Shown here piece after piece: positions 18,615 through 48,800 of a stretch of DNA of 64,000 nt. Origin of the DNA: Albula goreensis. Taxonomy: Eukaryota > Chordata > Actinopteri > Albuliformes > Albulidae. The stretch is from assembly GCA_022829145.1 (NCBI GenBank), contig CM040747.1, forward strand, positions 1,833,948 through 1,897,947, read 5' to 3'. Position numbers and translations under genes: made by a program. The stretch's first letter is position 1. The number at the start of each line of letters is the position of its first letter. Under the pieces are notes generated by a model. That model did no database searches and was not told the DNA's origin. It worked only from the letters and a program-made list of their open reading frames with translations.

Positions 18615-20593
18615 GTACCTCACCTTTGCCTGCTGCATGTTCTCAGACCCAATCTTGGGGTTGTATGCTCATATTCCACATTTCAGCCCCAATTACAACC
18701 TCTAAGTACAACAGCCTGTCTTCTGCTGTTCCCAGTTGGACACTTTTAATGCAACTGGCTAATTCAGTGTGGTCCCTATTGCTTTGAGTTCAATGACAGC
18801 AAAGTTCAGAGTGCCAAACCTACATTATGTTACAATTTGAGGAAGACCATGATGGTAGATCTTTAGCACATGTTTTCAGTGGAGTTATTTGATAGAGAGA
18901 TTGGTTGTAAGAAAAAAAGCATACATAGACTATTCCTAGGACTGTGTTTTGAGATCCCATGATCCCCTGGTTTCTCTGTCTGTGGGTGAGGTGTGTAAGG
19001 TAAATCTCTGTGTGTGGGTGAGGTGTGTAATATAAATCTCTGTGTGTGGTAGAGGTGTGTAAGGTAAATCTCTGTGTGTGGTAGAGGTGTGTAGGGTAAA
19101 TCTCTGTGTGTGGTAGAGGTGTGTAAGGTAAATCTCTGTGTGTGGTAGAGGTGTGTAAGGTAAATCTCTGTGTGTGGTAGAGGTGTGTAAGGTAAATCTC
19201 TGTGTGTGGTAGAGGTGTGTAAGGTAAATCTCTGTGTGTGGTAGAGGTGTGTAAGGTAAATCTCCGTGTGTGGTAGAGGTGTGTAGGGTAAATCTCTGTG
19301 TGTGGTAGAGGTGTGTAAGGTAAATCTCTGTGTGTGGGTGAGGTGTGTAATATAAATCTCTGTGTGTGGTAGAGGTGTGTAATATAAATTCTCTGTGTGT
19401 GGTAGAGGTGTGTAAGGTAAATCTCTGTGTGTGGTAGAGGTGTAAGGTAAATCTAGAGTGTGTGTAGGGAAAAGGTGTGTAAGGTAAATCTCTGTGTGTG
19501 GGTGAGGTGTGTAAGGTAAATCTCTGTGTGTGGAAAGAGGTGTGTAAGGTAAATCTCGTGTGTGGTAGAGGTGTGTAGGGTAAATCTCTGTGTGTGGTAG
19601 AGGTGAGTAAGGTAATCTCTGTGTGTGGTAGAGGTGTGTAAGGTAAATCTCTGTGTGGTAGAGGTGGTAGGTAAATCTCTGTGTGTGGTAGTAAGGTAAA
19701 TCTCTGTGTGTGGAAAAGGTGAGTAAGGTAAATCTCCGTGTGTGGTAGAGGTGTGTAGGGTAAATCTCGTGTGTGGTAGAGGTGTGTAAGGTAAATCTCT
19801 GTGTGTGGTAGAGGTGTGTAAGGTAAATCTCTGTGTGTGGTAGAGGTGTGTAAGGTAAATCTCTGTGTGGTAGAGGTGTGTAGGGTAAATCTCTGTGTGT
19901 GGTAGAGGTGTGTAAGGTAAATCTCTGTGTGTGGGAAAAGGTGTGTAAGGTAAATCTCTGTGTGTGGTAGAGGTGTGTAAGGTAAATCTCTGTGTGTGGA
20001 AAAGGTGTGTAAGGTAAATCTCTGTGTGTGGTAGAGGTGTGTAAGGTAAATCTCTGTGTGTGGGAAAAGGTGTGTAAGGTAACTCTCTGTGTGTGGTAGA
20101 GGTGAGTAAGGTAAATCTCTGTGTGTGGGAAAAGGTGTGTAAGGTAAATCTCTGTGTGTGGTAGAGGTGTGTAAGGTAAATCTCTGTCTCACCAGACGAG
20201 CTCCTCCTGTGGACCCGGAGATCCTCCGCACCATGAAGACGGTGGGGTTCATTGGTTACGCCCCAAACCCTCGGACACGACCCCGAAACCAGGCAAGCCG
20301 TTCTCCTGTGCTTAAGCTAGTGAAGGGGGCGACAGGTTTCACTCAACCAAAAATAGGAGGAGCTACCATATAGCATTAGTGACTAGCTGATAAGGAGAGA
20401 TGATAGTGCTTTGCTGTCAAGAGACAAGTCAGTGATTGATGGCTGAGTTTATCGCCACCGGTAATGGGATTTTTTTTCATCAGTTTTGCTTATAGCATCA
20501 TAGTTCTTGTAACGGTACTCTCTATAGATATTCTCTGTTCCACCGTTTCATAGTTATCCTCTGCTGCTGCTCCATATCCCTGACAGTGCTCTA

Positions 20594-20671
<78 letters not shown>

Positions 20672-23600
20672 CAGGTTCCTTACAAGACCAAAGAGGTGGA
20701 GTTGGAGTATGACAGTTACAGCCAGGTTCCTGAGTCTCCCATTGGCCGGGACGAGGAACCTCATCTCTATATGGTGCCCAAAAAGTACAGGAAGGTATGT
20801 TATTGTCCTATATGTACTGTATAAAGGGTGGCAGACAGTTCAGAATGACCTTGCAAAGAGGAAAAAGTAAACACACTGCTGAAGTCTGCAATACTTCCAT
20901 GTTTTTATAACATTCACCTCTGGTGACTCTCAATGTGTTGTCCAGGTCACCATAAAATACTCCAAACTGGGTCTGGAGGACTTCGACTTTAAGCATTACA
21001 ACAGGACCCTGTTTGCAGGACTGGAGCCCCACATTCCCAACGCCTACTGCAACTGCATGATCCAGGTGAGGCGTGTCACCGTGCAGGTGGAGCCCCTTAA
21101 ATCTGTGGTCCTCAGTCCTGTTCCTGTAGGGTCGTGGTGTACGCAGGTTATTCTTTTCATCTGAAAAAAAACAGGTTGTTCAGATTTAAAAGAGCAGGTG
21201 AAGTGAGTCATCTTCTGGTAAGGGACCTGCTGAAGAACTACAAAAACCAGCAGACCCTGCTGCCCTCTGGGACCCAACAGTGAGGACCATGGCTCTGAAA
21301 GACTGTTTTGGGCCTGTTGTTTTGCTGAGTTCGATGTTGGTTTCAGCATTCAAGCCACTGACATTACCGCGGTCATGCTGGTTCATGTAATAGAATCCTA
21401 ACTCCTGTACTGGGCTGTTTGTCTATAGTGCCTTTTATCCATAATCCTATAAAAATATATTGAAAGAATAGTTCACAGTCAGGCGGTGCTGCTGTCAGTG
21501 TCAGTAACTATCCTTTAGTAATCTCCGTTTGAGTTCTGGGTTCCAATGCTTTTCTGGAGCCGAGGGGCTGGGATGTGGCTCCATAGCACAGGAGCTTGTT
21601 TGAGTGTGGGACTGTACCTGCTCCAGGTGCTGTATTTCCTGGAGCCCATCCGCTGCCTGGTGCAGAATCACCTGTGCCAGAAGGAGTTCTGCCTGGCCTG
21701 TGAGCTGGGCTTCCTCTTCCACATGCTGGACCTGTCCAGAGGAGACCCCTGTCAGGTGACCTGAACCCAGCTGCCTGTGGGACTTTCACACTTCCTGTTT
21801 CTGCTTTTCCGTTTTCTGTCTCACTTCTTGTTTGGATTTTCACTTTCCGCCTCACATTCTGTTTCATCTGTATTGGGACCATGTACTCTTGATACATCAC
21901 ATCATATTAGTTATTTAGTACATGCATGTGTTTTTAATATAAGTAATAGTACCACTCTTGGTTAGCATCAACAAGCATCACTGCAAGGTACCTATGCTAA
22001 CTATGATTAGTTCAAACAGTGAGCTAATTCTAAGATAATCGTAACCATAATTATCATAATCAAAAACAAAACCTAACCTCAGTTTGTTGCAGGATACAGC
22101 CTGAATATGCCATCTCTTTCTGTCTCTGTCCTCCTCCTGCTCTCCTCTCTGTCTTTCTGCAGGTGTTTGCATAAACAAGTATTGATGTTTTCCTCAGCCA
22201 TTCTTTTTTTTTTTTTTTTTTTGATTTTTATCTCTCTTCCTCTTTCCCAAGGCCAGTAACTTCCTCCGAGCGTTCCGGACGATCCCGGAGGCGTCGGCCC
22301 TGGGCCTGATTCTGGCCGACTCGGATGAGCAGACGGGGAAAGCCAGGCTGGGGCGTCTGGTCCAGAGCTGGAACCGCTTCATCCTGACCCAACTGCACCA
22401 GGAAACCCAGGAGCAAGAGGGACCCCAGGCCTACAGGGGCGTCAGCAACAGGTACGGCCTCAGGCCTACAGGGGCGTCAGCAACAGGTACGGCCTCAGGG
22501 CAGGGCTCAGCAACAGGCCTCAGGCCTACAGGGGCGTCAGCAACAGGTACGGCCTCAGGCCTACAGGGGCGTCAGCAACAGGTACGGCCTCAGGCCTACA
22601 GGGGCGTCAGCAACAGGTACGGCCTCAGGCCTACAGGGGCGTCAGCAACAGGTAAGGCCTCAGGCCTACAGGGGCGTCAGCAACAGGTACGGCCTCAGGC
22701 CTACAGGGCGTCAGCAACAGGTGCGGACCTCAGGGCAGGGCGTCAGCAACAGGTAAGGCCTCAGGCCTACGGGGCGTCAGCAACAGGTACGGCCTCAGGC
22801 CTACAGGGCGTCAGCAACAGGTAAGGCCTCAGGCCTACAGGGGCGTCAGCAACAGGTACGGCCTCAGGCCTACAGGGGCGTCAGCAACAGGTGAGGAGGG
22901 ACTCCAGGTGCGAAGGGGCATAGCAACAAGTAAAGAGGGTCTCCAAGGTATACTGGGGAGTCAGTATTAGGTAAGCCCCCAGAAAGAAGAAAATGTGCTT
23001 GTTTTGGTGAGAGAGTAGTCACTGCTCAGTATAAGCAGTGGGTAACTTGCCTTGTGATCCTCTGCTGTTTCCTGGCCGGTTGTGATGTGTCATTGTGCTG
23101 TCTCCTGCAGCGGGCTGGGCTCGTCGGGGGAGTCTGTGATCGGCCGGCTGTTCGGGTGCGAGGTGGAGAACAGCAGCCTCTGCCGCTGTGGGAAGGAGAC
23201 CGTGCGCTCGTCCCTCACTCTCCTGTTCACCATGCACTACCCTGAGCAGAGCTCGCTCGGTGAGTGACCAGCTAACAGGCTAGGCCTCCGATAAAACACT
23301 AAGAGTTACAGTCAGACCTCCAGGTGGCTCATGGGTTTGGGAAGCAGGCGAGAGCCTGGGGACCAGGTGTGTAAGTCCCATTACTGACTATGACCAGAGG
23401 TGTGCATTGCCAAAGCAACAATCGACCCAGTCTTGCCAGGATGATCAGAGTTAAACCAGTTAAAGTTGTTCTTATGATCCATAGAATGTTTTGTGAGATT
23501 TTTTCAGAAATGCAGTTACAGAGTTTAACAACTAGTACAACCCATCGTTAACTTAAAGAAGAGGCTGTCGTTTCTGCCACCAATCCTTTCTGTGCTTGTC

Positions 23601-24565
23601 GTTCATCTGTCAATCCCTCAGATAAGTCCATAAAGGAGTACGACTTTGCAGAGATCCTGAAGAAGAGCATCTGTCTGGAGCAGAGCACCCAAGCCTGGTG
23701 TGAGAACTGTGAGAAATACCAGCCCACAGTGAGTACTGCGCCCCCCCCCAGCCCACAGTGAGTACTGCGCCCCCAGCCCAGTACTGCGCCCCCAGTGCGC
23801 CCCCTCAGTACTGCCCCCAGCCCCCTCAGCCCACAGTGAGTACTGCCCCCCCCCAGCCCACAGTGAGTACTGCCCCCAGCCCACAGTGAGTACTGCACCC
23901 TGCCCCCCCAGAAAACACTGCCCTGACTGGCTTGTGTTTTTGCGGTGTGTTTTAATGTGAGGTGGAATGTTACCTGAGTGTCTGTTGCTCCTCTGATCTC
24001 CAGGTGCAGACACGCAACATCCGCTGCCTCCCGGACGTGCTGGTGATCAACTGTGAGGTGAACAGTGTGAAAGAGGCGGAGTTCTGGAAGGCCCAGGCTG
24101 AGGTGAGGCCCTCAGCCAATCAGGGCCCTGCTGAACCATTACCGTGCATTATAACTCGGCCAATCACAGCCCTGCTGCACAGGCAGAGCCGAATGCAGTA
24201 CTGTGTTCTTATGAGTTTGATGTTTGGATGACAGGCCAAGACATTTATGTGAGTCTACAATAAAAAAAAACTCAGAAAAAGAATCCGATTCTTAAGTTCA
24301 AATTCATTTACTGTTTGTGTTTCTGTATAATGAAATAAAACTCAATGAAAGCTTTGTATTGGGCATATAAGAAATAGTGCTTTGCTGTGGGGAACCCCAT
24401 CAGATGTATCTCCATTTCATCTCCATTTGTCGCTTGTCTGTGTTGTGTCCTCAGTACGCTTTCAACAAGGCCATGAAAAAGGAGGAGATGGAGCGACCGA
24501 AACCACCCAGAGAACCCATCCCAACCGAGTGGTGTGTGGAGTAAGGGCATTTAAATACACATATC

Positions 24566-24800: not shown

Positions 24801-27800
24801 ATTCTGTGGTGTTGATATCGCCCCCTGCAGGGAGGATCTGTGCAGTGCAGAGGGCCTGACCTTTGACACCAGAGCGGAGGACCTGCGGCACGTGTGGATC
24901 CCCCTCAGCCTGAAGATGTCCATCAGCAAGACCCAGGGTTGGAGATCTGCTCCTGGAGCGAGAACGAGGAGGTGAGAGGCGTGCCGAGCCATGCCAGGCC
25001 GAACCGAGCCGAGCCAAACACAACTGAGCTTAGCCATGCCAAGCTGAGTCCAAGCTAACCCATGCTAAACTGCTTGATGAAGTGGATGACTGCATGGGGC
25101 GGGTTTTATTTTCAGTGGGATTATGCAGGTAATGTATCCTGTTTTCTGTGAAGTTATCGAGATAATGAGTCAGTCATTATGCAGGTAATTTATCCTGTTT
25201 TCTGTGAAGAGTTTTTTTTTTTTTTTTTTTTGGTGACGGACCACAGCTTAGTGCCGCGGAGGAGGCAGAGGGCGCTGCCATCTATGACCTGGTGGTGACC
25301 GTGTCCCATGTGCTGGACGCTCGCACCGGGGGAAGTCTGGTTGCACACATCAAAGTGGGAGAGACCTACCACCAAAGGAAAGAGGTGAGCCGGAATGGAG
25401 GGTGGAGTGGAGAGATGGAGGCTGTACACAGCGAGCATAATTATTATAAGTAGTAGCAGTAACAATAAACCTGTATTTATATAGTACCTCACATAAAGAA
25501 TAAAAAGACAAATACAAAGCGTAGGTTACATGGAATAGGTCAACTGAGAAAAATTTGTATAAATGTGACAATTGTAGTTTGAGAAGGAAAGTCCTTCTTT
25601 GGTTTCCAAAAGGAAGGAATCCAGTTTTGACTCATTCATAACAGTGTCTAGTCAGTCAGGCTAAATTAGTTAAATCGATTGCTGATGTGTCTTGACCTGT
25701 GTCTTGTCTAGTAATGATAAAATCTGTACCTGTTCCCATCAGCTGTGTCTGTCTGTTTCAGGGGGTGACACACCAGCAGTGGTATCTATTCAATGACTTC
25801 CTGATTGAGCCGATTGATAAGGTAATAACACCAAATGTTAACGGCATGCACAGAGCGTGACCTCATCATAACGCTCCGGCCCTTACAAAATACTATATCA
25901 ATCAGTATTCATGAGAAAATGCATTGCTCATCCGATTAGTGTTGTGTAGTGTTAGTTTGACATCCTGCCTCAGGAAAGCCAGGTTGTACACTGGGGTCGA
26001 GAATGGCCCTTTACAGGTAAAGGTGTTCTCCCAGCATCCTCTGAAGTGTGTCTGCTCATCTGTTCATTCAGGCTGAGGCAGCCCAGTTTGACGTGAGCTG
26101 GAAGGTTCCGGCGATACTGTATTACGCCAAGAGGAACTACCACACCAAATATGACCTCCGCAGTAAGACACGCTGCCGCCCACCCCCCACACTCTGCTCC
26201 TAATGCTGATATCGTCCTCTATGCTGCGTAATGAACTGCGCTCACCTACTTCCACAAGCGTGTGAATAGAGCTAATTTCTGAATGCACAGACATGGAGTA
26301 CACATTTCAGGTGCTTTTGTTGTGTAGCAAGTGCTAGGTAAGAGCTGAATGGAGTTTAGTCTGATTTTGATTGTGTGTTGGATCACAGTGCCAGGACAGG
26401 ATTCTGGTCTGTCAGATATAATTTCGTATGGCTCATGAAGTACATGTGTTTGACTGTATTTTGTTATTCTCCCTCATAATCCAGTTTGAGAGTCTTGGGA
26501 AGGTGTTGACGATATGCTGTCTGCAGTATTTTATGCAGTGCTGTTAGAATGAGGCTGTGATACCCATAGGCTGTGTATAGTCAGCCGAGGTCCTCGCTTA
26601 CCTGTTTGTCTCCCAGCGGTCCTCATTTGCCTGTTTCTCTCCCAGAGGTCCTCACTAGCCTGTTTTAGCCTAGAGGTCCTCACTTGCCTGTTTCTCTCCC
26701 AGTTAAGAACCCGATAGAGGCCAGTGTGCTGCTGGCGGAGGCGTCTCTGGCCCGAAAACAGAGGAAGAGTCACGCCACCTTCATCCCCCTGATGGTCAGC
26801 GAGATGCCGCAGGCCGGGGACCTGGTGGGCCTGGATGCTGAGTTTGTCACGCTCAACCAGGTCTGTGGTCACCATGGAGATATGAGTCCACAATGTCTGA
26901 AGTCCTGTGTGTGTGCCTGTAAGCCTGTGTGTGTGTGTGTTATTGCTGGATTTGGTCATATGACCTTGTTTTCTGCAGGAAGAGGCGGAGCTCCGGAGCG
27001 ATGGCACCAAGTCCACCATCAAGCCCAGCCAGATGTCTGTGGCGCGCATCACGTGCGTACGTGGCCAGGGGCCCAATGAGGGCGTCCCGTTCATCGACGA
27101 CTACATCTCCACCCAGGAGCAGGTGGTGGACTACCTGACCCAGTATTCGGGCATCAAGCCAGGAGACCTGGACGCCAAGATCTCCTCCAAGCACTTAACC
27201 ACACTCAAATCCACCTACCTTAAGCTGCGCTTCCTCATTGACACCGGAGTGCGCTTCGTGGGTCACGGCCTGCAGAAGGACTTCCGGGTCATCAATCTGC
27301 TGGTAAACAGGGAGAGGACTCTCAGACTCACTCCTGGGGACACACTGTGTTTGCCAGTGTTTGTAATGGCTGCAATTTTGCATTTGAACTCATTTTTTAA
27401 AATATTATTTTTTTGGCACTTCTGCTTTGTTTGGTGGTGGGTGGGTGGGGAGGGGGGTCCTGGGGTGGCATACAGTGGGTGTACTGGGCTGCGTTTGGGC
27501 CCAGGCCGCTGTGGTGGGAGCTTGTCCTTGGTGCATGGTATGTGTGCTACCGGGGCCCCCAGTACTTAGACTCATTTAAAAACAGTGCAGGTCTGGCTCT
27601 GTCTCATTTGTCATCATTCAATGCATCATTATACTTAAATACATTAGTTCCAGTGAGTGGGCTCCGCTGTCAGATAGGACCCAGTTTATTTCAGCTGTCA
27701 GGGTATATTTGAATCCATTAACATGGAACCTCTTTCAAAGGGAATTAACTGCAGAATAGAAAATGAAAGCAGTAGTTGCTCGACTGTCTTGGATTTGATT

Positions 27801-33800: not shown

Positions 33801-36596
33801 GCTTCACCCTGAGGCTATCGCAGCCATCCAGAGCAAAGCGCTGTTCAGCCAGGCCGAGGAGGCCCTGCTGGCCAAGATCGGCTCGGTGAGCAAACTCCGT
33901 CTCCCCCACACTGAGAGTTTGTAAAACCATGGTCCTCACTCCTTTTCCTGGAGGGCCACAGAGTGTGCAGGTTACTGTTTTCAACCAGTTAAATCCCAAG
34001 AAACCGGGTGAGGCGAGTTAACTGTAATCTGCTGTTTTGATCAGTCAAATATTAGCTGAGCTGCAGCAAAAACCAGCACATGCTGCGGCCCTCCAGTACC
34101 CGGAGTCAGGACCCCTGCCGTTAAACCGAGCCACACACTACACTAGGGATGGGCTGGGGAGGATTTCATGAACTCTGATAGGGTGGAGCCACACTCAGCT
34201 GTCAATCATTGACTTTTTTAACCAATCAAAAATGCTTTCTATCCACAGCCAAGGTGGTCATTGGTTCAAATCATCGAGTCACCGATACTGTCTAGTAGCT
34301 CGTTCCTCTGAATGAAACCTCATCCCCCCATCACCGCACTTCAGCTCTAATGATCATCGTCACGAGTTTATGAAAAGTGAAGGAGATTTCAAGATTCAAG
34401 ATTCTTTATTGTTTCGTCTCATATACAGGTGTAGGAGAGTAAAAACCTTTGGTTTCAGCTCCATGACTGTACAGTGTAGGAAGGAAGTGCTGAGTTAGCA
34501 ATAAGTACAGATAGCGGTAAATATATATAAAAAAGAATGAAAACTAAGCTAATGTAAGTAAACAAATGTAACTAAAAACTAAACCTAATATCAAGAACTA
34601 AATAATAAAATAGGGAAAGGAGCATAATCATAGAACAGTGCAGCAGTATGGTGAAGATATGCAGAACAACCAGACAAAAACAGAATCAGGAAGCTGGGAT
34701 CCCAAACCACACAATTTTGACAGTGTAGTGCTGCCCTCTGCACCAACAAACACACTGTCTGTGGATTTGGACTGAACTCACATTTCCAGCAGCATTTCGG
34801 AAGGGCTTTTGGTAGCTGGCTGGAAACTGGAAGGTCCTGAGAGTTACCGCAGATGTTGTAGTGATTGTATCCTACTAACACAAAACACATTCTGCTCACT
34901 CTCTCTGGAAATAAACTTGAATAGCATTTGGAGTGTTCTACACACAAAAATTCTTGCTCCTCACGAATTTACTGCACATTCCAGGTCCCAAAACAGACAG
35001 GGTGTCTGTTCATTTTGCATTCCCAGCCTTTCAGTGGCTGTGCCTGAAACTAACTAACAAAACAAAGAAACGACTTATGTGCATACGACAAAAACTGGGG
35101 TTCTCTTCCTTTAACACAGTAATTTAATTGGTCAGTTTACAATTTCCAGTTTCCATGGTGAAAAGGTAAAAAAAAAAAAAAAAAAAAGTTATGTTTTTTT
35201 TTTTCCCTCTCCAAATGGAAAACTTGTCAACAATTTGTCATTACGTCAGCTTTCCAGAAGACATGATTCAGTTCCCTGAGCAAACTCTAAAATCTGAAAC
35301 TGATTTTGCATGTGGCGGGGGCGCGGCGGGCGCAGGCGAGCCAGCCCAAGCTGGAAGTGTTCCAGGAGCTGCTGAGCAAGCACCCTGCCGTGTTCTACCC
35401 CTCCCGCACCCCCAAGAGCCTGCTGGTGCACTGGCAGCTACTCAAGCAATACTACCTACTGGATGACCAGAGCGGTGAGTGTATCCCACAATGCCCTGCT
35501 CTCACACAGTCTTTTACATGCTGTTTGAGCTCGACCCCTCCACACCCAACCCTCCCAGTCTAACCCCCCCTCCCTGTTTGTCACCTCCACAGTTCAGCCC
35601 CTCCCAAAGGGTGAACAGGTGCTGAACTTCTCAGACGCGGAGCAGCTGGTGGACGAGGCGAAGCTGAAGTGAGTGCTCGTGGTGAAGCCGTGTGTTTGAG
35701 TCCCAGCCCTAACATCACCGGCTGCTGTCATGGGTCGACACTGTGGAGGGAATGACCGGCCCTGCCTCGCTGGGTAGAGCTGCGTTTGAGCCAGTTTAGT
35801 CTCCAGTCTCACAGCTCCCTGTCCAGACTGGCCGGACACTAATCATGTGTTGAGTTTGTGTTCCTCTGGCGGCACAGGAAGATCAGTCACATTTGCAGTG
35901 CGGAAAGAAGCGAGGGCTAGTCCTTATGTGAACTGGAGGAGTGTGTGTGTGTGTGTGTGCGTGTGCGTAGCTTTCTCTTCCTCTTCCCAAATCTGGGGGA
36001 GACACTCTGTACATGGTTTTTGTTGGGGGGATCTGTGCATGTTTTGCCCCAGTGTGGAACCTGATTACTGTTTGTCTGGCTTCCTCACACAGGGAGACCA
36101 GGGATGAGGTGCTGGAGCACGGTAAGCAGCCGTTTCATAATGAACACACAGAGTGGGGCGGGTGAGAGTGGGGCGGGTGAGTGCGGGTGAGGGCAGTGCG
36201 TGGCGGGTGAGGTTGGGGCAGGTGAGAGTGTGGGGCAGGTGAGAGTGCGGGGCGAGTGAGGTTGGGGCAGGTGAGGGTGCGGGGCAGGTGAGAGTGCGGG
36301 CCGGGTGAGGTTGGGGCAGGTGAGAGTGCAGGGCAGGTGAGGTGGGGCAGGTGAGAGTGCGGGGCAGGTGAGGTTGGGGCAGGTGAGAGTGCGGGGCAGG
36401 TGAGGTTGAGGCAGGTGAGAATGTGTGGCAGGTGAGAGTGCGGGGCAGGTGAGGTTGGGGCAGGTGAGAGTGCGGATCCTGTTAAGATTTCCACCCACCC
36501 AGATGTCATGTACCTGTCATGTTTGTGAAGGGTGATACTTTTCCAGCTAGATTGGTTGAGGTCAGTATTCTCCTTTGTGAGTGACGTACGTACACA

Positions 36597-36629
<33 letters not shown>

Positions 36630-36987
36630 CTGAGCTGCTCTCTGCCTCCCCACAGAGCTGATGATCGCGGACCGGCACCAGAAGAGGGAGATTCGGCAGC
36701 TGGAGCAGGAGCTTCCACGCTGGCAGGTCCTGGTGGACAGCATCACAGGTGAGACCCACACACACACACACACACACAGCATCACAGGTGAGCAGCCTGA
36801 GACACACACACACACACACACACACACACAGCATCACAGGTGAGCAGCCTGAGACCCAGACACACACAGACACACACAGCATCACAGGTAAGACCCACAC
36901 ACACACACACACAGCATCACAGGTAAGACCCCACACACACACACACACAGACACACACAACACACACACAGCATCACAGGTAAGACC

Positions 36988-37024
<37 letters not shown>

Positions 37025-37089
37025 CATCACAGGTAAGACCCACACACACACACACACACAGCATCACAGGTAAGACCCCACACACACGT

Positions 37090-37120
<31 letters not shown>

Positions 37121-39916
37121 GCATCACAGGTAAGACCACACACACACACAAACACACTCAGCATCACAGGCAAGACCCACACACACACATGCACACACAC
37201 ACACACACACACTTGAGTGTGTGTTCAAAACGTTCAGTGGATGTTGGGAGTAAAATCACTTTATTAAACATCAAACGCTTACATCATTAATCCCCTTCAA
37301 AGTACTCCCCTCGCGCGCACACCCTTTTTCCACCGTTTCTGCCGCTGTCAGACACAATTGTGGACGCGCTCTTTGCCAGTCAGCTTCAGAGGGTCTGTCG
37401 TGTTGGATTTAATGTCTCCGATCGTGTCCAATCGCTTCCCTTTCATCGCTCGTTTCTGTTCGGGGAGCAGCCAGAAGGTGCAGGATGCCAAGCTGTGCGA
37501 GTGAGGAGGATGAGGGACCACAGGGGGTGCTCTGCATGCAGCAGCTCCGCTCGCCAGACTGTCTGATCAGGCCTCATACATGCACACACACACTCATATG
37601 CAGGCATGGACCTGCGCAAGCTCACTCACTCACTCACTCACTCACTCACTCACTCACATACACACTCACTCACTCATTCACTCACGCTGACTCGCTCACT
37701 CACTCAGTCACTCACTCACTCACTCACACTCACTCACTCACACTCTCACTCACTCACTCACTCACTCAGTCACTCACTCACTCACTCACTCACTCACTCA
37801 CTCACTCACTCACTCACTCACACATATGTACAATCGGAAAAAAACACATTACAAATAGATACATCCAGTTTGAACTTTACACACTTAACATGTCAGAGTG
37901 AAGACAATAAATTATAAAAATTAATTTTACTCCTCATACAAATGAGTTCACTGGCAGCTTCATGTTTTTCTCAAGACTACATCTCTTTTTGTCTTTTTGT
38001 GCTTTGTCAGAGATTAGGAACTGTGCAGCTCCTGCACTAGTGCACCAGCTCACCTCTGTCATCTCTCTGCATAATAGACCCATTCTGTGTGATCTGCTTT
38101 GCTGGTGAGCGGTTGAGCTCATTCTTCATCAGGCCAAAGGGAATAGCAAATGTGAATCCTTTCTGTTCTCCTCTCTGTGCTGCCACAGGAATGAACTCGC
38201 CAGACTTTGACAACCAGACGCTGGCTGCGCTCGGGGCCGAATGGTGCGCTATCTGATGAGGTCCAGGGAGGTGGGTCTGATATCTGATGTGGGCAAACAA
38301 GCACTTTTAGTAAACACGTCTCCTGAGAGGTCTCATGTTTTTTCACATCACTCCATTCACTAGTGTCTATATGTGAATGCATACTATTTTTTTTTGCCAA
38401 ATATTTCAATACGTGATGCATAAATCTGCCTAAATGCTTGCATCTTTGGGGAAAGGAAAGATGGGAGTCTACATTAGTATTTAAATTGAAAATGGAGCCT
38501 GAAAAACAAGACTCAGGTGTTTATATGGGAGTGAATTCCCTCTCCACCCGCAGATCACGCTGGGGAGAGCCACCAAGGACAAGCAGATAGACGTGGACTT
38601 GTCTCTGGAGGGACCGGCCTGGAAGATCTCCAGGAAACAAGGTACCCTGATCCCCATGGCCTCCTCACACGAGCTCTAGCCTCTGCTGCAGAGAGTCTTC
38701 CCTGTCCAGGGGAACTGTCACGCGCTCCCACAACCCCAAACCCCCATCAGCCGCACCATTACCCCCCTATGTGTCAGCTGCCCCCCTCCCCTCCTGCTCA
38801 CTGCTAATTGGAAATGAAAGGCAACAAGTGTGGCAAATCGGTCAATTTCTCCCGAGAATACCCGATTAGAAAACTCATCTGCATGTTTAAACAAGGACGC
38901 CGCTTTGCCTGGGAGGGTAATTCAAGTCGACAGGAGTTGTGGCAGAAGGAAGGTAAACAAAACATATTTATGACCACAGGTACCTGGTAGAGCTAGCTGA
39001 CAAATGTACGGCTGTGTTGAAACAAAACCCAAACTGATGTGACTTATTTGTGCTTTCTAAAAGACAATAGCTGCTTACATAGTTGTGTATGGCTGACTGA
39101 GTAGCAGTAAGGGCAGCGGTGATTGGTTGGAATGAACAGTAAGGGCGGCAGTGATTGGTTGGAATGAAATGAAAGCCTGTAGGCACACAGACCCCCGGCT
39201 CTGTGTTTGAGGCGTGTGATGCAGACACACTGAGGCTGAGCTGGTTGAGACGACGCTGAGGCGACGTTGTTGTCTCCGTGTGCGCCTCCGCAGGGATCAT
39301 CAAGCTGAAGAACAACGGGGACTTCTTCATCGCCAATGAGGGCCGCAGGCCCATCTACATCGACGGGAGACCGGTCCTGTCAGGGAACAAGTGGAAACTC
39401 AACAACAACTCAGTGGTGGAGGTGAGCAGGAAGAGGGGGAGGGGCTTGGAGATCTGAGGAGAGAGGAATGGGGCTGGTTGGCTATGGAGAGTCAGAGGGG
39501 GAGGGGCCAGTGAGCCTGATGGACAGAGAGGGGGCGGGGCTAGTACACCTGAGGAATGGAGGGGGGAGGTCTTGTTAGTGCTAGGGAATTGGAGGGGGCA
39601 GGAAGCCTATGAAAAATGGAGAGTGTGAGAATTTAAGTGATGAAATTAAATGCACATGTATATTAAGCTGCAAAGCTTGACAATTCAAAAAGGTAAATTT
39701 TATTATCAAACACAATTGTTCCATTTTTTTTATTAAGTAAATGCAGCTATAACCGTGACAGTGCTGAGCCACATTTAAAACATTCCAGTCCTGCTTAACG
39801 GTTCCCTCCCTCCCTCCCTCCCCCTCCAGATCGCAGGCCTTCGTTTCGTCTTCCTCATCAACCAGGAGCTGATCGCCATCATCAAAGCGGAGGCGGCAAA
39901 GATGAGCCAGCAGTGA
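30872..39916 (+). CDS. mcrs1: Microspherule protein 1 (MCRS1)
   Basis: MCRS1 is a nuclear and nucleolar FHA-domain protein found in the NSL acetyltransferase and INO80 complexes and at spindle microtubule minus ends. Coding exons: 30872-30881, 31143-31308, 31828-31966, 32383-32547, 33246-33355, 33777-33885, 35336-35474, 35593-35668, 36093-36121, 36656-36748, 38189-38270, 38554-38641, 39294-39421, 39830-39916. They sum to 1421 nt; adding one base missing at about 38231-38236 gives 473 residues (human 462). Exon 1 encodes only MDK plus one base, as in human. Basic tracts PKRRSSSRS and TKRVKKSRQ are likely nuclear signals. DLGRWKPVDDLLLINAVLQ and FSCRFTLREIQERWYALLYD mark the MCRS N-terminal domain. 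ELMIADRHQKREIRQLEQEL is a predicted coiled coil. ITLGRATKD through FFIANEGRRPIYIDGRPVL is the C-terminal FHA domain. All phases agree. Confidence 0.96.
32026..32232 (+). repeat. Dispersed repeat, copy 1 (mcrs1 intron 3)
   Basis: About 200 bp that recurs at 34155-34368. Shared blocks include GGTGGAGC, CTCAGCTGTCA, AACCAATCA/AGCCAATCA, CACAGCCAA, TGGTC, CAAATCAT-GAGTCAC-GATACTGT and CCCCATCAC. Divergence is about a quarter of positions. No coding capacity or terminal repeats seen, so the class is unknown. Confidence 0.75.
33927..34120. repeat. Inverted-repeat (MITE-like) element, mcrs1 intron 6
   Basis: Left end TGGTCCTCACTCCTTTTCC, then TGGAGGGCCACAGAGTGTGC. Right end, ATGCTGCGGCCCTCCAGTAC then GGAGTCAGGACC, is its approximate inverse complement. 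Shares arms with 21103-21300, so it is a second copy of the same family. Confidence 0.65.
34155..34368 (+). repeat. Dispersed repeat, copy 2 (mcrs1 intron 6)
   Basis: Second copy of the roughly 200-bp element at 32026-32232, same orientation, immediately downstream of the inverted-repeat element. The two copies sit about 2.1 kb apart in introns of the same gene. Confidence 0.75.
34385..34445 (+). repeat. Dispersed repeat motif (TTCAAGATTC type)
   Basis: TTCAAGATTCAAGATTCTTT then ATTGTTTCGTCTCATATACA resembles a repeated sequence common in fish genomes that starts with doubled TTCAAGA and leads into TTTATTG. The right-hand boundary is unclear; AT-rich sequence follows to about 34620. Confidence 0.4.
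36135..36475. repeat. G-rich minisatellite in mcrs1 intron 9
   Basis: Imperfect tandem units of 17-21 bp alternate GGGGCAGGTGAGAGTGC and GGGGCAGGTGAGGTT through about 340 bp, starting 14 bp or so after the exon 9 donor. Each unit contains CAGGTGAG, a near-ideal 5' splice site, although the real donor is CACG/GTAAGC. The plus strand has repeated GGG tracts with G-quadruplex potential. Minus-strand proline-rich open frames are artefacts. Confidence 0.93.
36589..36630. repeat. (CA)n microsatellite before mcrs1 exon 10
   Basis: A CA run ends about 26 bp upstream of the exon 10 acceptor (CTCCCCACAG). Confidence 0.9.
36739..37212 (+). repeat. mcrs1: Tandem array of mcrs1 exon 10 end plus donor site
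   Basis: The last ten coding bases of exon 10 and the donor, AGCATCACAG/GTGAG, recur about nine more times, each followed by a CA run. Later copies read AGCATCACAGGTAAGACC, a stronger donor; the last is ACAGGCAAG, a GC donor. Splicing at the first extra copy (36787/36788) adds 39 nt, in frame and stop-free, and restores the same phase. Units vary from about 35 to 58 bp because the CA part changes length. Confidence 0.93.
37614..37822. repeat. (CTCA)n microsatellite, mcrs1 intron 10
   Basis: About 205 bp of ACTC tetranucleotide repeat with occasional ACACTC, GTCACTC and CGCTC interruptions. All frames are open (THSLTHS type) and non-coding. Confidence 0.95.
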
Positions 39917-45839: not shown

Positions 45840-48800
45840 TCAGGGACAGTGTGTCCGAGGGAGCCTCTGGGGCAGCCCATTAGGCGTAGGGCGATCCTGC
45901 CGGGGAGGCGAGAGCGGGTTGGACTGGGCGGAGCCGTTAACGGACGCGGGGCTAGGCTGGGAGCCGGTGCCAGCACCCGCCCCCTGCCCACGGTTGCCTT
46001 GGTAACGATAGCCGCCGGTCCGGTTAGGGTTCCGGTCGTGGTGCGGGCCGCCGTTGTACCGGTGACCCCCAGGGTGGTAGCTCTGACCCGGACGGTGGTT
46101 GCCTTGGTAACCCTGAGGCACAAAAAAAAAAAAAAAAAAATTGTTATACATATAATGTGTGGTAAAATGTGTAACATAGTTATGGGATTAGTGGATTTCA
46201 AGCTCAGTGGGGTATGTCAGCACTACTGTTAAAGAATAATTTGGGATCATTATAAATAAAATAATCACATAACAGGTTTAGCAGAGCCTTAAGCGGTCTG
46301 TGCAGCTAGAAGAACAGAGAGAAGGCTAACCTGTCTGTGAAGCTGGGTGTAGCAGCAGAGGAAAACCTGTCTGTTTGGTTGGGTGTAGTGTAGCTAACCT
46401 GTCTATACAGTTTGGCAAAACACAGAGAAGGCTAACCCCTCTGTGTGGTTTGTCATAGCATAGCGATGGCTAACCCGTCTGTTTGGTTGGGCGTAGTGTA
46501 GCGAAGGCTAACCTGTCCGTGTGGTTTGGCATAGCGTAGCAAAGGCTAACCTGTCTGTGAGGTTTGGCATAGCACAGAGAAGGCTAACCTGTCTGTGCGG
46601 TTTGGCATAGCAGAACAAAGGCTAACCTGTCCATACGGTTTGGCATAGCGCAGAGAAGGCTAACCCGTCCGTGTGGTTTGTCATAGCATAGCGAAGGCTA
46701 ACCTGTCTGTGTGGCTGGTTGGGGCGGCCGCCGTATCCCGAGGCTTGGGGTGGGGGTGGGGCCTGGGAGATGGGTGGGGCTTGAGACTGCTGGGACGGGG
46801 CCAGTCCCTCCAGGGTGCTGCTGGGGCCGGTGATGGAGGAAGAGGCGGAACTACACCGGGAGCGGCTTGAGTAGCCAGTCTGAGGATGGTACACTGAGGA
46901 AGGGGGAGGGTGAGAGGGCAAGAGAGACACAGAGAGGGGGGAGAGAGAAGAGGGAGACAGAGATGGAGGGGAGGGAACGACAGGGAAAGAACAGAGGGCG
47001 AAGAGAAAGAAATGAAGAGAGGAAGAGAGAGTAGTGAGAGAGACGGGGAGGGAGAGAGAGAGGGAGAGAGACAGACCAAGGGAGAGAGAGAAGAGGGAGA
47101 GAACAGAAGCTGAGTCACACTGCAGATGTCTGTGGGACACACTGGTCTATATTGCTGTCACGGTTATTTATTAGTTTGTTTTACAGGTAATGACTGAGTA
47201 AGACTGGGACTAAAGGCAGTGGTCAGAACACACAGATGACAGTGTTTAAACATCCTGGAACCTTCTGAACAGCACACTAATGAGAGTCTGAAAGGAGAAC
47301 ACACTGAGTGCTTTGGAGTATAGTTTCTGGAAATTTCCAAAGGTAGCGATGATGAGTGTGCAAGTCTGCACGTGGGCGTCTGTCCTCAGACAGGGTCTTA
47401 CCTTGTCCAAATCCCATGACGCTTTTCTTCAGCGGCTCCAGCTCATACGTGAACTTGACGGCCCTCCCCAGGTCTTCGTCGTACTTGCGTTCGCTTACAA
47501 AGTGCTGCAGGGAGGAGAAAAAAAAAAAAAAAAAAAGCGCAGCGTGAGCTGGAAGCTCGGACTGAACCTGCAGGGAGAGACGGCGCTCCGGCTCACCGTG
47601 ACGCCTCTCAGCTACACACGCACCATCCTGTGCTCTGGAAATAGAACTGTACATTCAGCCAAGCCCCAAAACCAGCACGTCACCCCATGCAGCAGTTACC
47701 CCCACCGTAAAAGTCAGTTTGGGGACTACTCTTCTAAAACAATCGTTTCCAAAACCCAAAACCCTTCTCCCGCGTGCCGTGGCGCATATCTTTGCATGCG
47801 TCACAGGTGTGACGTGGCTTTCACATCGGCAAAGCTACCGCGCAAACAAAGAGGTGTTAGTTTTCCAGCTACTTCTGCAGAGTCACCTGCACCATCTGTC
47901 TCTGATTCTGTTCGGAGTCTGTCTCAGATGAGCCCGACCCACCTAATTTAACGCCTGCTTTTTATCACTTAATGATCCAAAATTGTTTTAAAATATCTCA
48001 CAACAGTTTTTGTGCATTTTAATAGCCCTAATTCTAAGCATGCAACTTGCAGAGTATTTCCTTTTTCAAGGTCGTTAAAATGTCTGCTCTGAGCATTCTG
48101 GGACGGGGACATGTGAATGGATTTCTCTTTTTTTTTTTTTTTTTCGCTCATGCGCCTGCCGCGGATTTCATCAGGCTAAGACGTTTTTCCTCACGGGGTG
48201 CAGTGACGGTCTTGGAGCCGTATCAAAAGTTTGGCATTCCCAAAATTATTCCATGACATTTGCCCATTTTGGCAATGCAAAAATACAAAATTCTTCCATT
48301 TGAAGAGAGCATTAATCCTCTGTAACCCGCTTAAGATTTCCACAGCAAACGTTTGCCAAACTGTGCAACGTTGCAAGGGTTTGGGTTGTTGACGAGCACA
48401 GCGGTTTTTCTGTGGCATTAGAAGAGCATCAAACCGCAACATTAAATGTAATCGCACATTATCACTGTTGGCAAAAATACGCAACTTAACAGTGAGGTTT
48501 TACTGGGAACGTCCTGAAGTTTAAAGAGGAGTCCAGCCCTTTGATGCGCGGTCTGAGTGCTGATCATAAGCAGGTTCCCATGCCTTTTGAAAGGAGCACA
48601 TTTCACATGGGACCACATGGGACATTTACGATTAATTAAAAAATGGAATTAGGTTAAAGGCATACACCAACATTTTGGTACTTAAGCCCTTTTTGTCTGC
48701 TTACAAAGAGTAGAAAAACAGTCCGGTGCCATTTTAATCTCTGTGTGCGCGCGTTCTGCAGAAATCTCCACAAACAATCCACCGGACCGCACTCAAAGTC

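Follow-up and report, generated by a model that had tools for sequence, protein, structure and literature searches.

A tandem array at the end of pan2 exon 11

The window that we analysed is a 64,000-nucleotide stretch of the Albula goreensis genome (932 Mb), on contig C7 (41.7 Mb in length) at 1.83-1.90 Mb. It contains pan2 and two neighbouring genes, mcrs1 and spats2, named by their Pfam matches (MCRS_N and SPATS2-like, respectively). We found that the end of pan2 coding exon 11 lies in a tandem array that continues into the intron. The features at this boundary are:

22252-22451, + strand: pan2 coding exon 11 (UCH_1 domain), with CAACAG at its end
22426-22892, + strand: 35-bp tandem array, 13.8 copies (TRF), each unit with 26 nt of exon end and 9 nt of intron
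22896-22973, + strand: two diverged copies of the exon-11 end and its donor (22896-22932 and 22933-22973), with alignment scores of 32 and 30
23111-23259, + strand: pan2 coding exon 12

The array has a period of 35 and 89% matches, and its unit takes 26 nt from the end of exon 11 and continues with GTACGGCCT. That is, minisatellite-like tandem copies span the exon-intron boundary. The copies also contain splice signals, with 13 CAG/GT donors in the array. An earlier note on this DNA had described about 14 copies of a unit that joins the exon end to its 5' splice site and thereby makes a ladder of donors. The ladder and the array are as described; the donors number 13 and not 14, the GT having been lost from the copy near 22511. 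(A CAG/GT at 22908 sits within a diverged copy and was left out of this count.) The first donor, GTACGG at 22452, and the GTAAGG copies at 22652, 22753 and 22821 had all been placed correctly. The 35-bp array itself is beyond chance. A search of the genome matched it at one place only, and its copies differ from each other by distinct variants.

The diverged copies, like the further splice-site arrays described below, are additions to the earlier note. They are ~40 bp long, lie at the 3' edge of the array and carry the donor-like words GTAAA and GTAAG. The maxima from shuffled sequences were 22 and 24, and the scores of 32 and 30 were reached by none of 2000 shuffles. The array has a homogenised core with diverged edge copies, at its 3' edge only. 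If, as we infer, the diverged copies are the older ones, then a duplication of the boundary came first and the expansion of the 35-bp unit followed.

The first donor most likely makes the normal mRNA

Joining 22451 to 23111 gives a protein that aligns without gaps, over 268 residues, to PAN2 of PDB 9qtu chain C (E 3.2e-151), which we take to be the human protein. The first-donor protein also matches Pfam UCH_1 (E 2.4e-81). A search of the genome with the UCH_1 profile gave at least 7 matches, 3 of them within this pan2 gene and the other four with E values of 3e-5 to 6e-4. We recognised no second pan2 among the matches listed. Given the ungapped alignment and the lack of a second recognised pan2, exon 11 most likely has its normal donor at 22452. 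If pan2 is single-copy, then canonical splicing should be needed. The array most likely leaves the PAN2 protein unchanged.

Reading frames of the downstream donors

We determined the frame in which each donor of the array would join exon 12. The donors that matter most to the argument are:

22452-22457, + strand: first array donor, GTACGG; canonical frame; score of this donor 3.26
22617-22622, + strand: downstream array donor, GTACGG; keeps the frame with no stop and adds 165 nt (55 codons)
22821-22826, + strand: downstream array donor, GTAAGG; keeps the frame with no stop and adds 369 nt (123 codons); score 5.96
22891-22896, + strand: last array donor, GTGAGG; shifts the frame, and the extension contains a stop

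Downstream of 22452 the array has 12 donors. At 22617 and 22821 the frame is kept without a stop; the remaining 10 shift it. It had been noted before that splicing at 22820/22821 adds 369 nt without a stop, with a GVSN end before exon 12, and that the donors at 22651 and 22752 are frame-shifting; our reading of the frames bore out both statements. Absent from the earlier note were a second donor that keeps the frame, at 22617 (165 nt added), and the high-scoring donor of the last copy (22891). The minisatellite of human IFI6 (6-16, G1P3) has a unit of 12 bp and hence preserves the frame. From this unit we derived an expectation of our own for arrays of the IFI6 type, namely that alternative donors mostly keep the frame. 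The pan2 array, with 2 of 12, departs from that expectation.

It is possible to read the array as a length-variable coding insert, as the earlier note had proposed. Use of 22821 (or 22617) would then place 123 (or 55) extra residues in the hydrolase-like domain of PAN2. Neither donor shifts the frame or brings in a stop, and 22821 is stronger than 22452. However, the open frame is weak evidence, because the consensus unit is free of stops in all three frames, as are 1715 of 5000 shuffled units. (Units of the GTAAGG type do introduce stops.) An open frame is what such a unit would give by itself; it is not beyond chance, and selection is not needed to account for it. In addition, the +369 frame hinges on one-base differences and on copies of irregular length (60 nt, 34 nt in three cases, and 32 nt). 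Among the 34-nt copies, two differ in a run of G and one is missing an A. An insert would also break the region that aligns ungapped to PAN2 of 9qtu, and with a 35-bp unit, which is not a multiple of three, most changes in array length would shift the frame. With the ungapped alignment from the 22451 join, this unit length and frame-keeping by 2 of 12 donors, the proposal has nothing in its favour beyond the open frame and a donor stronger than the first, and we think it quite improbable.

Donor strength and folding

We scored donors with a matrix that was built from 33 of them in pan2 and mcrs1. The score at 22452, the first donor, is 3.26, and 10 of 33 other donors score lower. The three GTAAGG donors score 5.96 and the last donor, GTGAGG, is the best in the array at 6.14; for each of these, 26 of 33 score lower. 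Thus four downstream donors score clearly above the first, and a fifth, GTGCGG, also scores higher (3.44). Donor strength would not lead one to expect exclusive use of the conserved donor, which several of its copies outscore.

These scores bear on another alternative, that the array is a source of splicing noise or a regulatory ladder. Stronger downstream donors would compete with 22452 and, with aberrant transcripts being degraded, the length of the array would set how much functional pan2 mRNA is left. The four donors that clearly outscore 22452 are consistent with this, as is the frame shift at 10 of the 12 downstream donors, and human IFI6 is an example of such repeat donors in use (PMC4526556). 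In contrast, the comparable duplications in amphioxus are reported to occur without disturbance of splicing (PMC3087553, PMC3902484), and no donor was singled out by RNA folding. We regard this alternative as unlikely. Use of the first donor may still not be exclusive: there are stronger donors downstream, the downstream repeat donors of IFI6 are used, and the amphioxus copies could act as cryptic sites.

RNA structure was tried as the selector of the first donor and rejected. Folding of the array gave a z of -6.1 against 60 dinucleotide shuffles and of -1.5 against arrays of shuffled units, 14 of 200 of which were equally low. The unpaired probabilities of the donors varied with the folding window, and 21 other pan2 donors were about equally buried. 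The array folds better than the dinucleotide shuffles, with no clear advantage over shuffled-unit arrays, and the accessibility of the donors is ordinary for pan2.

Possible errors in the assembly

The copy number or the bases of the array might be wrong in the assembly. Small indel errors are possible in the window because two coding exons show apparent one-base frame breaks. The pan2 coding exon at 24831-24971 reads SKTQG in one frame and GLEICSW onward in another, with an apparent one-base break at about 24938, which reflects either faulty assembly or genuine variation. The mcrs1 exon at 38189-38270 has a comparable apparent break at about 38230. One single-base error inside the array would alter the +369 frame. 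The distinct variants among the copies and the single genomic place of the array argue against an artefact, which we consider very improbable.

Other splice-site arrays in the window

We found four more arrays at splice sites, in pan2 and the two neighbouring genes:

23719-23905, + strand: a further donor array of pan2, whose unit joins the exon-13 end to GTGAGT; five exact CCCACA/GTGAGT copies including the true donor at 23729
26587-26702, + strand: acceptor array of pan2 exon 20; four copies of pyrimidine tract plus AG, the last being the acceptor of the exon that starts at 26703
36735-37180, + strand: mcrs1 donor array, ATCACAG/GTRAG; nine copies including the true donor at 36749, in a CA-rich tract, with outer limits set by eye
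46330-46714, - strand: spats2 donor array, GACRG/GTTAGC; nine sites including the presumed true donor at 46702

Five of six arrays in pan2 and mcrs1 touch a splice site. These six were selected by hand (arrays with a minisatellite period and about 2.5 or more copies by TRF, plus the CA-rich array of mcrs1). With random placement P was 0.31, or 0.09 when arrays were barred from covering exons. Clustering at splice sites in the two genes is therefore not significant (P 0.09-0.31), and the introns are short. The specific feature is that the units of the donor arrays contain the exon end plus the donor, and not contact with a splice site as such.

Several other features were seen in the same genes. 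A 32-bp array at 18973-20187 (1.2 kb, 38 copies) ends 8 nt upstream of a pan2 exon, and its unit has acceptor-like and donor-like words. At position 20293, pan2 has an apparent GC donor (CAG/GCAAGC). A CAGGTGAG-rich array at 36155-36472 begins 33 nt past an mcrs1 donor, and the end of that exon is not repeated in it.

Surveys of the genome

We looked for similar arrays in 20 blocks of 10 kb, one at 10.0 Mb of each of contigs C1-C20. Chains of donor-like words were present in 4 of the 20 blocks (L002, L007, L012 and L013) by word scan alone. Inspection by eye of the flanks of four arrays in blocks L007, L012 and L013 revealed no evident splice site. Single donor words in the 20 blocks numbered 20, backwards donor words 6 and CAGGTYAG words 11.

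We also examined 80 hand-picked donor-side stretches of kinase and myosin exons, representing 78 exon places (L062 and L063 are the opposite side of the exons in L040 and L038). Several of these come from one gene, and some are without a clear donor. Minisatellites started close to the donor in L038 (+5 for a two-copy row, with longer rows from +14), L053 (+6), L052 (+7) and L044 (+11), as counted by hand, and farther away in L055 (+38) and L047 (+116). The four close cases are all less than 2 Mb from a contig end. Near-donor minisatellites were found at 4 of 40 places less than 3 Mb from an end versus none of the 38 other places (P about 0.06 in a one-sided calculation by hand, with a limit set post hoc); none were found at the 20 myosin places near contig ends. 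The units in these four cases do not contain the exon end, unlike the pan2 unit. L053 and L038 resemble paralogous exons, and their minisatellite units differ. The scan for chains of donor-like words detected no repeated exon end in gene orientation in L024-L063 at a threshold of 3.5, at which the exon-13 and spats2 arrays of the window likewise escaped detection.

Lastly, we searched the genome for three CAGGTRAG words with gaps of 12-42, which is a sequence pattern irrespective of exons. There were 4191 matches to this triple donor word and 479 to its backwards version, compared to 2005 and 390 for CAGGTYAG and its backwards version. Counted by hand as distinct arrays on the first 67.27 Mb of C1, as far as the donor matches listed extend, there were 21 donor arrays, 3 backwards donor arrays and 6 CAGGTYAG arrays. 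The first 3.5 Mb of C1 held 12 of the 21 donor arrays and 4 of the 6 CAGGTYAG arrays. The CAGGTYAG arrays crowd at the start of C1 too, and therefore end-crowding is not special to donors. In addition, the donor word is itself about twice as common as CAGGTYAG, and therefore the excess of donor arrays, about twofold, is not secured. A preference of arrays for splice sites across the genome is suggestive only. It could be that splice-site minisatellites are widespread, change rapidly and are concentrated near chromosome ends, and that hundreds of genes have length-variable ladders of strong donors, pan2 being one case. This is a tentative idea that, on balance, we doubt.

A minisatellite at an exon-intron boundary

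We think it fairly likely that the pan2 array is a case of a minisatellite expanding over the junction between exon and intron, a structure known in amphioxus as a "mirage", and that normal splicing takes place at the first donor. The sequence shows the end of exon 11 and its donor copied in tandem as a near-uniform 35-bp unit. The first donor would yield the normal mRNA, in which the join leaves the conserved hydrolase-like domain of PAN2 intact. The downstream donors would be bystanders or low-level decoys, with most of their products frameshifted and probably degraded. The length of the array would be expected to differ between individuals while the protein is unaffected. The frame shift at 10 of 12 donors, and the similar anatomy at four more splice sites in this gene and its two neighbours, count in favour of this explanation.

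Ladders of near-identical natural donors with small differences in strength are ready tests of how the spliceosome chooses a site.

Comparison with known systems

A literature search of titles and abstract openings yielded, among the matches listed, no paper on a splice-site array in pan2 or in fish. Among fish, the growth hormone (GH) gene of Sparus aurata has tandem repeats in its introns, minisatellites that vary in length (cited in PMC3045353). These repeats are reported as polymorphic and, in what that article relates, are not described as spanning splice sites, unlike those of pan2.

Human segmental duplications contain minisatellites that have expanded in genes, and repeats at exon-intron boundaries have been discussed there as a route to new introns (PMC2812944). 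The pan2 array is similar in being a minisatellite expansion within a gene at such a boundary. The human repeats are in recent paralogs and have transcript support, whereas pan2 was recognised once in the genome, from sequence alone.

In human IFI6, as in pan2, a minisatellite, the subject of Turri et al. (1995), supplies several donors at one exon end. Two downstream repeat units of IFI6 act as donors, giving three mRNAs (PMC4526556). In contrast to that documented use, the pan2 array, with its 35-bp unit, is known from its letters.

The amphioxus mirages are the closest in anatomy. In them an exon-intron boundary is duplicated in tandem, in the manner of a minisatellite, with copies of donors or acceptors, as in Adh3, the globins BflGb6 and BflGb9, and PGBD5; AG or GT signals are present in many copies, inner units are homogenised with boundary units excluded, and haplotypes differ in length (PMC3087553, PMC3902484). 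According to the authors, regular splicing is left undisturbed (PMC3087553, PMC3902484), and the copies could serve as cryptic sites (PMC3087553). The pan2 array shares with them the boundary-spanning tandem copies, the splice signals and a homogeneous core with a diverged edge (PMC3087553). The two differ in that mirages were described in a lancelet, with haplotype lengths and RT-PCR, and the pan2 array is in a vertebrate and was seen in one assembly. The presence of five arrays at splice sites within three neighbouring genes suggests that mirages extend beyond lancelets, and they are a possible source of change in splice sites and introns in vertebrates. Judged by its anatomy, the pan2 array can be placed in an already known kind, that of the amphioxus mirages and the human IFI6 minisatellite.
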